This document shows, piece by piece, positions 13,907 to 18,445 of a DNA stretch of 64,000 bases; within the stretch, counting starts at the first letter, position 1, and the number at the start of each line of letters is the position of its first letter. A program made the position numbers and the translations under genes. The notes under the pieces are model-generated. The model did no database searches. It had not been told where the DNA came from and worked only from the letters and a program-made list of their open reading frames with translations. The stretch spans positions 1,053,501 to 1,117,500 of the forward strand of contig NZ_CP053538.1 of the NCBI RefSeq assembly GCF_013137895.1. Direction: 5' to 3'. The DNA is from Hymenobacter taeanensis. GTDB lineage: Bacteria > Bacteroidota > Bacteroidia > Cytophagales > Hymenobacteraceae.

Positions 13907-13936
13907 TTGCAAATATCAAAACCGGCTATACATTTG
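13907..13936 (+). promoter_or_regulatory. Promoter of the methionine operon (-33 TTG, -7 TACATTTG)
   Basis: TTG at 13907-13909 is followed after 19 nt by TACATTTG at 13929-13936, a perfect Bacteroidota (sigma-ABfr type) promoter. Transcription would begin near 13942, about 45 nt before the SAM-I riboswitch, giving a leader of roughly 550 nt ahead of metY. The preceding bases (13683-13906) show no gene. Confidence 0.8.
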
Positions 13937-13987
13937 CAACACCAACACGGTACTCCTCTGCTCGCGGCAGAGTAGTTTTCATAGGAT

Positions 13988-14094
13988 TTATACAGAAGCG
14001 GCGAGAGAACAGGCTCCCTGACCCGCTGGCAACCTTCGACCGCGCGAAAGGTGCCAATTCCTGCCCGACCAGCTTTTGCTGGCGGGGCATATAA
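13988..14094 (+). ncRNA. SAM-I (S-box) riboswitch
   Basis: Core conserved S-box segments are present in order: CAGAAGCGG near the 5' P1 strand, CTGACCCGCTGGCAACC, then AAAGGTGCCAATTCCTGCCC. P1 can form from TTATA (13988-13992) with TATAA (14090-14094). P3 is the GGCAACC...AGGTGCC helix, and P4 a CCCGACCAGC/GCTGGCGGGG hairpin with a TTTT loop. SAM-I aptamers bind S-adenosylmethionine and usually turn off transcription of methionine biosynthesis genes. It lies directly upstream of metY-metX-homoserine dehydrogenase, the expected target. Confidence 0.9.
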
Positions 14095-14105
14095 CTCAGA
14101 GTGCC

Positions 14106-14276
14106 ATGGAAAACACCCTCGCTTTCGCCCTTGTGAACCCATCTGCCCCGGCTGCCTTGCTGCATGCCGTCTCGCCGATGGTTTTTTGTGTTGCCCCCAC
14201 CGCACTGGTGGCCGCTCACGTTGCCGCGCGAATGCGAATGCGCTGCTGTTGTAGCGCTTGTTGTTGCTGTAGCTAG
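14106..14276 (+). CDS. Putative polycysteine leader peptide (short form 14232-14276)
   Basis: The last codons before the TAG at 14274-14276 read MRMRCCCSACCCCS: seven cysteines in ten residues. The shortest ORF is 14 codons from the ATG at 14232; an in-frame ATG at 14106, 12 nt after the riboswitch, gives 56 aa (MENTLAFALVNPSAPAALLH onward). Clustered codons for a pathway amino acid just before a stop, in the leader of a sulfur amino acid operon, are the hallmark of attenuation leader peptides. Polycysteine short ORFs acting as cysteine-responsive attenuators have been described in mycobacteria. I know of no such ORF paired with a SAM-I riboswitch. Translation and regulation are inferred. Confidence 0.55.
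   Translation: MENTLAFALVNPSAPAALLHAVSPMVFCVAPTALVAAHVAARMRMRCCCSACCCCS
14139..14187 (+). terminator. Candidate riboswitch-controlled terminator
   Basis: CCATC (14139-14143) pairs with GATGG (14177-14181), with further GC and CGGC/GCCG pairing across internal loops, and six T residues follow at 14182-14187. It stands 45 nt after the SAM-I aptamer, where an expression platform is expected. The stem is imperfect, so confidence is moderate. It lies inside the longer form of the leader ORF, so translation through it could also open it. Confidence 0.5.
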
Positions 14277-14381
14277 TCGCTGCCTGTAAGCCGACTCCTC
14301 ACAACTCCTCCCTCCTCTTCCTGATATTGCCCCCGACTGGTTGCGCCACCTAGGCCACCTCGCTGGGCCCCACCGCATCCT

Positions 14382-14418
14382 AACCGCTGTATCTAGCGGG
14401 TTTTGAGCGGTTTCCGCT
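14382..14418 (+). promoter_or_regulatory. Mutually exclusive hairpins in the metY leader
   Basis: Four short complementary segments occur in order: AACCGCT (14382-14388), AGCGG (14395-14399) followed by GTTTTG, AGCGGTT (14406-14412) and CCGCT (14414-14418). Segment 1 can pair with 2 (terminator-like, followed by a T-run) or with 3 (perfect 7 bp), and 3 can pair with 4. This is the geometry of an attenuator. It lies 106 nt after the leader-peptide stop and 77 nt before metY. Confidence 0.5.
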
Positions 14419-14474: not shown

Positions 14475-15884
<1,410 letters not shown>

Positions 15885-16140: not shown

Positions 16141-17202
16141 ATGTCAGATTTCGACCAACAAATATTCCGGCTGCCTAGGCCACTGCGGCTGGAAAGCGGC
16201 GCCGTGCTCCCGCACGTGGAAGTGGCCTACCACACCTACGGGCACCTGAATGCCTCCCGCGACAACGTGGTGTGGGTGTGCCATGCCCTCACGGCCAACG
16301 CCGATGTGCTGAGCTGGTGGCCAGGGTTGTTCGGGAAAGACACCCATTTTGACCCCGCCGACTGGTTTATCGTCTGCGCCAATATTCTGGGCTCCTGCTA
16401 TGGCAGCACCGGCCCGCTTACCCCTAATCCCGAAACCGAAGAGGTGGCCTACCAGCAATTTCCCCTGCTGACCATCCGCGACCTGGTTTCGGCGCACGAA
16501 GCCCTACGGGAACACCTGGCCCTGCCGCGCATTCATACCCTCATTGGTGGTTCACTGGGCGGCCAACAGGCAGTTGAGTGGGCTATTCAACGGCCTGAGC
16601 TGTTCGAGAATTTAGTGTTGCTGGCCACCAGCGCCCAGCACTCAGCCTGGGGCATTGCCTTCAACGAGGCCCAGCGCCTCGCTATTCAGGCTGACCCAAC
16701 CTACACCTCCGCAACGCCCGATGGCGGCGCGGCTGGCCTACGGGCCGCCCGCGCCGTGGCCCTGCTGAGCTACCGCAGCTATGAGGCCTACGACCTAGCC
16801 CAGACCGAGCCCAACGAATCAGTACTCACTGATTTCCGGGCCAGTTCTTACCAACGCTACCAGGGCGACAAGCTCGTGGCGCGGTTCAATGCCCACAGTT
16901 ACGTCACCCTGTCCAGAGCCATGGACTCGCACAACGTGGGCCGGGGGCGCGGCGGGGTAAAAGCTGCCCTAGGGCGCATTCGGGCGCGCACCCTGGTAAT
17001 CGGTATTACTTCCGATGTGCTGTTTCCACCCAGCGAGCAGCAACTGCTGGCCCAGCATATTCAGGGCGCCCTCTACGCCGAAATGGGCTCTCAGTACGGC
17101 CACGATGGCTTCCTGATTGAAACCGCCCAAATCACGCACTTCCTCGAACGTTTTTACGCGCCAAGCTATGTCAGCCAACCTGCACCTCAACTCTCTATCT
17201 AG
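16141..17202 (+). CDS. metX: Homoserine O-acetyltransferase
   Basis: The product is 353 aa, an alpha/beta hydrolase-fold enzyme that acetylates homoserine with acetyl-CoA, giving the substrate of MetY. Diagnostic segments: VAYHTYGHLN, VWVCHALTANADV, ANILGSCYGSTGP, the nucleophile elbow TLIGGSLGGQQAVEWAIQRP (Ser), GITSDVLFPPSEQQ (Asp) and MGSQYGHDGFLIE (His). Also typical are RFNAHSYVTLSRAMDSHNVG and KAALGRIRARTLVIGI. It lacks the C-terminal CBS or MetW extensions of some homologues. Its end overlaps the start of the homoserine dehydrogenase gene by 35 nt. An AAGGAGG-like sequence at 16098-16104 is too far upstream to set the start. Confidence 0.95.
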   Translation: MSDFDQQIFRLPRPLRLESGAVLPHVEVAYHTYGHLNASRDNVVWVCHALTANADVLSWWPGLFGKDTHFDPADWFIVCANILGSCYGSTGPLTPNPETEEVAYQQFPLLTIRDLVSAHEALREHLALPRIHTLIGGSLGGQQAVEWAIQRPELFENLVLLATSAQHSAWGIAFNEAQRLAIQADPTYTSATPDGGAAGLRAARAVALLSYRSYEAYDLAQTEPNESVLTDFRASSYQRYQGDKLVARFNAHSYVTLSRAMDSHNVGRGRGGVKAALGRIRARTLVIGITSDVLFPPSEQQLLAQHIQGALYAEMGSQYGHDGFLIETAQITHFLERFYAPSYVSQPAPQLSI

Positions 17203-18445
17203 CCCTTCCACCTCAGCTGCGCGGCCGTGGCGCGTGGGCCTGATTGGTTTTGGCTGCGTAGGCCAGGGCCTGTACGATATCCTGCAAAAACGGCCAGAAA
17301 CGGGCTTCGACATCAGCCGCATTGTAGTAAAGAACCAGACTAAAGAGCGAACCTTGCCCGCCAACCGGTTTGAGTTTGACGCCGCTGCTCTGCTAGCCGA
17401 CGACACCCTGGACGTACTGGTAGAGGTAATTGACGATGCCGAAGAGGCCTTCCGGCTGGTGGCGGCCGCCTTGCGCCGCGGCCGCCGGGTAGTTACGGCC
17501 AACAAAGCCATGCTGGCCCGCCACCTCCCCGAACTGGTGCAGCTGCAACGTGAAGGCCAGGGCACTCTATTATATGAAGCGGCCGTGTGCGGCAGCATTC
17601 CAGTCATCCGGACCCTGGACGCTTACTTTGGGGCCGAGCCCCTACGCCGCCTGACGGGCATCCTCAACGGCTCTTCTAACTACGTGCTCACCCGCATGGG
17701 CGAGGATTCTTCGGACTACGCCCCGGCCCTAGCGGAAGCCCAGGCCAAGGGCTTCGCTGAAACTGACCCGTCGCTGGACATGGGCGCTTTTGACCCGCGC
17801 TCCAAGGCGGTGCTGCTGGCCGCGCATGCCTACGGGGCCTTCCTACAACCAGAGCAGGTCTTGAACCTGGGCATTGAAGGCATCAGCGCCGTGGATATTG
17901 CCTTTGCCGCCACGCTAGGCCAGAAAATCAAAGTAGTAGCGGGCCTACAGCGCCTCCCCGATGGCCGCGTAACGGCGCTGGTAACCCCGCAGCTCGTAGG
18001 CCCGGATTCGCCGCTATACTCCGTGGATAATGAGTTTAACGGGGTGGTAATTGAGGCCGACTTTGCGGGCGAGCAGTTTCTGCGCGGCCGTGGGGCCGGT
18101 GGGCACCCCACCGGCTCAGCCGTGCTAGCCGATCTGGCCGCATTACGCCAAGGCTTTGCCTACCAGTATCCCAAGGCCAGGGCAGGTGCCCCGGCCTACG
18201 CCTCCGACCTGGAAGTGGAAATCTACCTGCGCACCGACGAGGACCGCCTCATCGACCTGCTCGACTTCAGCGAGATTTCGGAAGAAGCCGACGAGGACGA
18301 GTACGTGGTAGGCTACGTGGCCCTGGAAAACCTTATCCGCCACCGCGACACCCTGCGCAAGTACGGGGCCTTCGTGGTACGTACCGGGCAGCTGCGCCCC
18401 ATCAGCACGGCCGTGGCCGCAGTGGTAGAGGAGGAGTCATTTTAG
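17168..18445 (+). CDS. Homoserine dehydrogenase
   Basis: The product is 425 aa from the ATG at 17168 (an earlier in-frame start lies deep inside metX and is less likely). It reduces aspartate semialdehyde to homoserine with NAD(P)H. Motifs: WRVGLIGFGCVGQGLYDI (Rossmann), RRVVTANKAMLARHL, YEAAVCGSIPVIRTL, TGILNGSSNYVLTRM and AEAQAKGFAETDPSLDMGAF. It has no N-terminal aspartokinase, so it is the monofunctional form; the C-terminal about 90 residues have an acidic stretch (EEADEDEYVV). Its role with metX and metY is homoserine, then O-acetylhomoserine, then homocysteine. The 35-nt overlap with metX suggests translational coupling. A terminator follows. Confidence 0.93.
   Translation: MSANLHLNSLSSPSTSAARPWRVGLIGFGCVGQGLYDILQKRPETGFDISRIVVKNQTKERTLPANRFEFDAAALLADDTLDVLVEVIDDAEEAFRLVAAALRRGRRVVTANKAMLARHLPELVQLQREGQGTLLYEAAVCGSIPVIRTLDAYFGAEPLRRLTGILNGSSNYVLTRMGEDSSDYAPALAEAQAKGFAETDPSLDMGAFDPRSKAVLLAAHAYGAFLQPEQVLNLGIEGISAVDIAFAATLGQKIKVVAGLQRLPDGRVTALVTPQLVGPDSPLYSVDNEFNGVVIEADFAGEQFLRGRGAGGHPTGSAVLADLAALRQGFAYQYPKARAGAPAYASDLEVEIYLRTDEDRLIDLLDFSEISEEADEDEYVVGYVALENLIRHRDTLRKYGAFVVRTGQLRPISTAVAAVVEEESF

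Follow-up and report, generated by a model that had tools for sequence, protein, structure and literature searches.

A cysteine-rich leader ORF behind a SAM-I riboswitch at sulfur-assimilation genes of many Bacteroidota

The sulfur-assimilation genes of many Bacteroidota probably respond both to SAM and to the supply of cysteine through a cysteine leader placed behind a SAM riboswitch, because the aptamer is followed, only a few bases later, by a tiny gene whose 3' end is a run of cysteine codons. The common order is a SAM-I aptamer, as a rule a leader start within ~12 nt, a stretch of ~100-330 nt, and then metY, cysH or another gene. From the comparison of genomes presented here, the most fitting interpretation of the arrangement is a fusion of a riboswitch with a cysteine-reading leader, a real and conserved element whose mechanism we in part infer.

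Results

The window, i.e., the whole stretch of 64,000 nt of Hymenobacter taeanensis DNA that we analysed, contains this arrangement on the forward strand. A SAM-I riboswitch aptamer (13985..14097) exceeded the gathering score of the RF00162 covariance model (68.8 vs 44.4 bits). Eight nucleotides past its end starts the putative leader ORF, which runs from ATG to TAG, encodes 56 aa (14106..14276; translation MENTLAFALVNPSAPAALLHAVSPMVFCVAPTALVAAHVAARMRMRCCCSACCCCS, then the stop), and has RMRMRCCCSACCCCS as its C-terminus. Seven of the last ten codons are for Cys, with TGT and TGC mixed (CCCSACCCCS, 14244..14273, the candidate regulatory codons), and they follow a block reading RMRMR (CGA ATG CGA ATG CGC, 14229..14243) that recurs across the genus. 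Downstream, after 219 nt, come metY, which encodes an O-acetylhomoserine sulfhydrylase-type PLP enzyme (14496..15884, PF01053), a metX-like gene for homoserine O-acetyltransferase named by resemblance (16141..17202; Pfam: alpha/beta hydrolase), and the homoserine dehydrogenase gene hom (17171..18445, PF00742). Translation and profile matches thus bear out the original prediction, which had placed an ORF ending in a Cys run and TAG, with seven Cys in the last ten residues, between a SAM-I aptamer and the metY operon. As in amino-acid attenuators, a short ORF with clustered codons for an amino acid of the pathway precedes the operon.

A probable -7 element (TACATTTG, 13929..13936) matches TAnnTTTG, which we take to be the Bacteroidota consensus for this element, and TAnnTTTG is present at most 260 nt upstream of the leader ATG in all 45 analysed leaders of the genus. 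The leader ORF, 3' of the aptamer, starts ~170 nt downstream of this predicted promoter element, the position of the transcription start being itself a prediction.

We looked for the metY protein in 61 Hymenobacter genomes, own genome included, and the best metY locus was taken in each. Upstream of metY, a SAM-I aptamer was found in 51 of them (the own genome, plus 20/20, 19/20, 8/16 and 3/4 of the metY stretches searched with Rfam), and the leader ORF occurs in exactly the same 51; 49 of these leaders have a Cys-rich end and two are worn. Since the genomes of the genus are related, the 51 leaders are not independent. A script picked out a Cys-tailed ORF at 45 of 57 loci. Its expression missed the leader of L067, which ends RMRMCCWRPCCG and was added by reading, and at two loci the ORF is retained and its tract is worn (RMRMCWGCWM in L068, RMRMCWGCRM in L073). 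Among four further loci, L077 (CCCCQG), L078 (CCWRPCCC) and L096 (CCCCQG) have the leader and L075 lacks it. The remaining ten of the 61 loci have neither aptamer nor leader ORF within the ~1 kb examined. At nine loci (L071, L080, L082, L083, L085-L088 and L094), metY lies directly behind a gene that by eye resembles a thiol peroxidase, with no SAM-I leader directly upstream; because metY directly follows another gene there, an aptamer farther upstream is possible. The Cys-bearing stretch of L083 falls within that upstream gene and those of L149 and L150 lie at odd distances, and none was counted as a leader.

All 45 genus leaders analysed start with ATG and keep the frame over lengths of 40-60 aa. 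Their middle aligns poorly and their Cys tail is alignable, every Cys-dominated column containing both TGT and TGC. In 11 close, overlapping pairs, differences by codon position were 19/4/24 in the tail and 48/48/71 in the body, where the third-position excess is weak.

A wider search gave SAM-I matches in 147 of 194 genomes of the order and 141 of 198 of the class. We read 193 SAM-I loci (35 from the genus, 88 from the order and 70 from the class), those of the order and class being the best-scoring among the matches listed plus 60 and 40 picked rows, which is not a random sample. The survey counted ORFs of 10-95 codons between aptamer and gene whose final 12 residues include at least four Cys, or whose final 14 contain CCC, and classed the genes by similarity to 12 of the proteins. 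By chance, this criterion picks up 11 of 3560 shuffled stretches (0.3%) and 1 of 178 reverse-complemented ones; the Cys-tail expressions vary between our counts, and the chance control belongs to the 193-locus survey criterion only. A Cys-tailed ORF precedes metY at 29 of 40 loci, cysH at 7/7 and metX at 3/17. None was found before metH (0/70), metB (0/25), CBS (0/7), metK (0/2) or hom (0/3), and the other classes gave 1/1 (permease), 1/2 (ATP-grasp), 2/2 (the type of L194), 1/12 (other genes) and 1/5 (no gene). The comparison of metY and cysH (36/47) with metH, metB, CBS, metK and hom (0/107) gives a Fisher p of ~1e-25, uncorrected for relatedness and only indicative because the loci are related; these association counts were taken at SAM-I, metY or cysH loci.

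Outside the genus, the positive loci fall under ten family labels in the sample of the order and a further three in that of the class, the names of order and class being taken from locus labels and from the genus name. The longest Cys runs reach eight or nine (L168, L235). Outside the genus, 32 of 39 leaders start 1-12 nt past the aptamer end (range -5 to 24), with this end set at 108 nt from the aptamer start for region-fetched loci and any start lying over 10 nt within the aptamer escaping notice. Two loci, L194 and L195, have polycysteine leaders (seven Cys) behind SAM-I and before a gene beginning MQSFRTELELENP. CBS/cysteine-synthase-like genes ~80-145 nt past SAM-I (L008, L011, L013, L014, L016, L019 and L024) have an N-terminal extension containing Cys-Cys-Leu ahead of the enzyme domain in 7/7 cases.

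These patterns make it very likely, as far as sequence comparison can tell, that the ORF is a cysteine-responsive leader. The original prediction had held a chance Cys run to be improbable, in line with the shuffled and reverse-complemented controls, and had proposed a comparison with relatives, in which Cys tract, ORF and frame turned out to be kept across the genus, with TGT and TGC interchanged, and to recur in other families. A chance ORF, or a conserved RNA structure resembling Cys codons by coincidence, is hardly credible. It could account for the conservation of CGAATGCGAATGCGC and part of the tract as nucleotides, and for the small hairpin possible in some rows, but the frame is kept despite length changes in 45/45 leaders, synonymous Cys codons replace each other, in other families the Cys runs persist between unrelated flanks, the folding of the tract is unexceptional (z -0.42), and so few shuffles reach the survey criterion. 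The ORF product might instead be a functional Cys-rich small protein that binds metals or thiols, as its conservation and clustered Cys would allow. We consider this very improbable: searches of Pfam and NCBIfam with the 56-aa peptide gave no match, a protein database search limited to entries with three 5-residue words in common gave no candidate, the middle is unalignable, the Cys are variable in number and clustered next to the stop, and the ORF is associated with particular genes (metY 29/40 and cysH 7/7 vs 0/107).

The leader is not confined to metY. The own genome has five SAM-I aptamers. Behind four of them lies a short ORF with Cys in its terminal part, before metY, cysH (MNRFINSADSATSTAVQHGCCGMATPVCMAGACCCC), an amino-acid permease gene (MDFRPCRTARFVVSAACFGVPTVEQACCCGGCCCC) and an ATP-grasp-like gene (with a weaker tail, GPCCCW, and a Pfam match of the gene below the cut-off); at metH of this genome, the SAM-I aptamer has no Cys-tailed ORF. 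A piece of CysH was matched in 42 of the 61 genus genomes, and 28 of the 30 loci read have a Cys-rich ORF ~170-215 nt upstream of cysH, by a looser criterion without chance control. SAM-I was found at 29 of these 30 loci, the exception (L117) having the ORF, and two loci (L116, L125) have the aptamer and lack the Cys-rich ORF. The start codon of the cysH leader appears to be GTG, in the same place in 25 of 28. At the level of the order, 69 of 118 genomes gave a cysH match; a scan of 20 of 24 non-genus cysH loci with Rfam gave SAM-I solely in L148, whose leader (ending CCCCCC) is the only convincing polycysteine leader among these loci.

Among 80 named metY loci, several of them not from Bacteroidota, a Cys-tailed ORF lies within 650 nt upstream of metY in 22, and SAM-I was found in 21 of these (all except L369). 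Three of the 21 are not of this leader type, the ORF lying >300 nt behind the aptamer (L344, L357) or before it (L392). The 18 named loci that remain, with an aptamer-adjacent Cys leader, include Hymenobacter nitidus, Hymenobacter sp. CA1UV-4, four Mucilaginibacter, Pedobacter rhizosphaerae, two Saprospiraceae, one Bernardetia and one Lewinella. L344 and L357 are Chitinophagaceae MAGs, and their far Cys-tailed ORF looks as if leader and aptamer were separable.

Some loci have the aptamer without the Cys tail. This is the case for 11 of 40 metY loci behind SAM-I by the survey criterion, and SAM-I was found in each of four further named loci that were scanned for the reason that their Cys tail falls short of the criterion (L319, L325, L329, L340). 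We read 15 metY loci with weak or no tails, and 14 have an ORF whose start lies no more than 10 nt before or 15 nt after the aptamer end, a count without chance control; L223 is the sole case with no such ORF. The ORFs of L319, L329, L215, L204 and L224 have few Cys, and other weak-tail ORFs have neither Cys nor Met-Arg-His codons. Because 14 of the 15 keep an aptamer-adjacent ORF, these loci suggest a wider occurrence of the leader ORF than of its Cys tract. In L325 (Sphingobacterium sp.), the leader ends MSMRMRMHMHLPTC, where Met alternates with Arg/His and there is only a single Cys, a pattern that would fit a sensor shifted in favour of Met.

In 56 leaders from outside the genus, which were chosen by Cys, not Met, and include the far-from-aptamer L344 and L357, Met accounts for 68 of the 584 residues other than Cys in the last 16 positions, vs 0.8% in the bodies. 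Since Met is concentrated in the tail and not in the body, composition suggests that the tail may read both sulfur amino acids, Cys and Met. The AUG codons of the tail could also have another role, e.g., as internal starts. A motif CGAATG(C/T)G precedes the Cys run also in another family (L200, L201 and L203; 14229-14243 in the window), and GAATG occurs in 6 of the 56 outside-genus tails. In other bacteria CGA is a slow Arg codon.

Directly 5' of the leader ATG, GAGTGCC (14099..14105; mostly GAGTRCC in the genus) can pair with GGTACTC (13949..13955), which lies close to where the predicted transcript begins, in a helix that would enclose the whole aptamer. Closed atop P1, this helix would bring the leader start codon under SAM control. 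In 45 genus metY leaders, 96.6% of its cells are paired and two of its seven pairs have both bases changed, and sliding the partners lowers whole-structure pairing from 95% to 35-52%. Its duplex z averages -1.42 and is below -2 in 14 of the 45, and outside the genus the helix was not seen (mean z 0.03, 11 loci). Conserved complementarity is mainly what supports it. A hairpin just 5' of the aptamer, P0 (13952..13976), which shares ACT with the enclosing helix, is well supported by alignment, with GGTACTC participating, and 6/6 of its inner stem pairs are changed on both sides. Between the predicted promoter and the aptamer, a hairpin and a short T-run (13952-13979 in the window; CAATTCTTT...AAAGGATTGTTTTT in cysH leaders) look terminator-like, upstream of the riboswitch. 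P1 is extended by 2.0-2.5 pairs at Cys-leader loci vs 0.4-0.6 at metH or metB. We rejected this extension as a substitute for the gating helix: it is equally long (2.0) at five metY loci without Cys, and the first-8 pairs are no different. By eye, no terminator was seen directly behind the aptamer in the window.

Leader stop and metY are 177-312 nt apart across the genus, and the stretch between them is poorly conserved. In the window it opens with a small predicted hairpin that overlaps the stop codon (AGTCG ... CGACT, 14275..14296), for which fold z averages -1.6 in the genus (below -2 in 15/45) and -0.52 outside it (6/29). A conserved hairpin inside the Cys tract was another candidate, rejected with a fold z of only -0.42, no better than shuffles. 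After the stop follows a tract whose base composition is C-rich and G-poor (14292..14340), a candidate Rho-loading region. Nucleotides 15-45 past the stop average 44% C and 14% G in the genus, and 27 of 45 genus leaders contain 12 or more C and no more than 5 G there, vs 3.5% of 606 intergenic 30-nt stretches of the window; outside the genus the tract was not seen, the same nucleotides being 22% C and 20% G.

Two known types of attenuation have to be weighed against these observations. Under classical transcription attenuation, Cys stalling would decide whether an antiterminator or an intrinsic terminator forms ahead of metY, with the riboswitch as a separate device. Terminator-like hairpins between leader and gene are enriched outside the genus (10/29 vs 4.0 in shuffles; 5 vs 0.8 at dG <= -9), which favours a classical terminator there, and the window has a terminator candidate near 14386-14406 (L036 is among the terminator-like matches). 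Yet this candidate has just four T, the leader-to-gene stretch is so poorly conserved, and in the genus such hairpins are not enriched (18/45 vs 19.6 in shuffles); on balance we judge this mechanism unlikely. Translation attenuation, as reported for mycobacterial cysteine genes, seems more doubtful still. In that mechanism the leader RNA would pair with the start region of metY, and a stalled ribosome would free this region. The last 48 nt of the ORF do show a weak excess of complementarity to the 90 nt before metY (genus mean z -1.0, below -2 in 7/45), but the excess is small, smaller still outside the genus (z -0.48, 2/29), and the two regions are far apart. We prefer Rho-dependent termination at this locus because the genus has the C-rich tract and terminators are not enriched there; we do not extend it to other families.

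Discussion

Our preferred reading, which the genomic patterns make rather likely, is a two-input leader in which the aptamer gates initiation of the leader and the Cys (perhaps also Met) codons stall the ribosome. SAM binding would close P1 and, in the genus, the helix GGTACTC/GAGTRCC beside the leader AUG, so that the leader ORF would be left untranslated; on the modelled pairing, the chances that SAM-dependent closure blocks leader translation in this way are about even. When SAM is low, the leader would be translated, and low Cys-tRNA (perhaps low Met-tRNA) would stall the ribosome in the tail. A ribosome stalled near the stop would then prevent early termination by the downstream RNA, which in the genus would most likely be Rho-dependent and occur at the C-rich, G-poor tract. 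That a stalled ribosome prevents Rho-dependent termination, the third step, seems plausible from base composition, at slightly less than even chances. As an outcome, metY-metX-hom would be expressed only when SAM and cysteine are both short. The dual sensing envisaged by the original prediction, of SAM by the RNA and of cysteine by ribosome stalling, is thus supported by genomic association. Recurrence of the pairing at cysH and a few other genes, and the Met codons of the tail, go beyond what that prediction had noted. One may tentatively go further, to a class-wide leader that would integrate three sulfur signals (SAM via the aptamer, and Cys and Met charging via the tail codons), with initiation as the direct output of the aptamer and the whole acting as an AND gate for sulfur assimilation; this extension we hold to be possible and distinctly short of probable.

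A riboswitch is usually regarded as a device apart from leader peptides. In the loci described here they occur together over many Bacteroidota families, at homocysteine-making and sulfate-reducing genes, and not at the metH and metB loci that we read. This provides a system for studying how an attenuator can be gated by a riboswitch, which of Rho and terminators acts in Bacteroidota, and what makes a cell choose between synthesizing sulfur amino acids from sulfide and recycling them. The pattern of a Cys tail in an aptamer-adjacent ORF also offers a way to recognise small ORFs that lack annotation.

A literature search, which covered best-ranked results and few subscription papers, gave no description of a SAM-I riboswitch combined with a Cys leader, or of polycysteine leaders in Bacteroidota. 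Polycysteine leaderless uORFs of mycobacteria were reportedly the subject of work by Canestrari in 2020. As far as the accessible part of PMC13236596 goes, these mycobacterial uORFs are likewise short Cys-codon ORFs before cysteine genes; unlike them, the window ORF lies behind a riboswitch and not at the predicted transcript start, in a different phylum, and its position ~170 nt past the predicted promoter element sets it apart from leaderless translation. The candidate Cys leader peptides of Actinobacteria (PMC1262725, accessible part) also have Cys runs near the stop, without a conserved terminator and with Rho suggested there too, and no riboswitch is mentioned in front of them in that text. 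Tandem Cys codons in a uORF are shared with the uORFC-8-2 cysS motif of Rhodobacterales, which differs in having two Cys codons, a terminator stem with a U-run and cysS as its gene, no riboswitch being mentioned in the available portion of PMC8632094. Clues for leader-peptide attenuation at amino-acid operons have been given for a flavobacterium (PMC9723704, in the part accessible), and the accessible part of PMC7366714 contains nothing on leader-peptide attenuation.

Other known systems resemble ours on the riboswitch side. In the Mbox-uORF-Rho system of Mycobacterium tuberculosis, a small ORF is the direct target of the riboswitch and termination is Rho-dependent, but the ligand is Mg2+ and the available text of PMC12810186 proposes no amino-acid-sensing role for the uORF. 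The B12 riboswitches and uORFs of the same species similarly combine a riboswitch and a translated uORF that jointly act on the downstream gene, with B12 as the ligand and, in the accessible portion of PMC11260477, a uORF that is not described as an amino-acid sensor. A second input from amino-acid supply exists in the Xanthomonas SAM-I riboswitch, which senses uncharged initiator tRNA; according to the part of PMC7270179 available, this involves direct binding of the tRNA instead of ribosome stalling. With the SAM-I (S-box) riboswitch itself (RF00162), the window aptamer shares a score above the curated cut-off and a place before sulfur genes; it differs in that the first element downstream is the start codon of a leader ORF.
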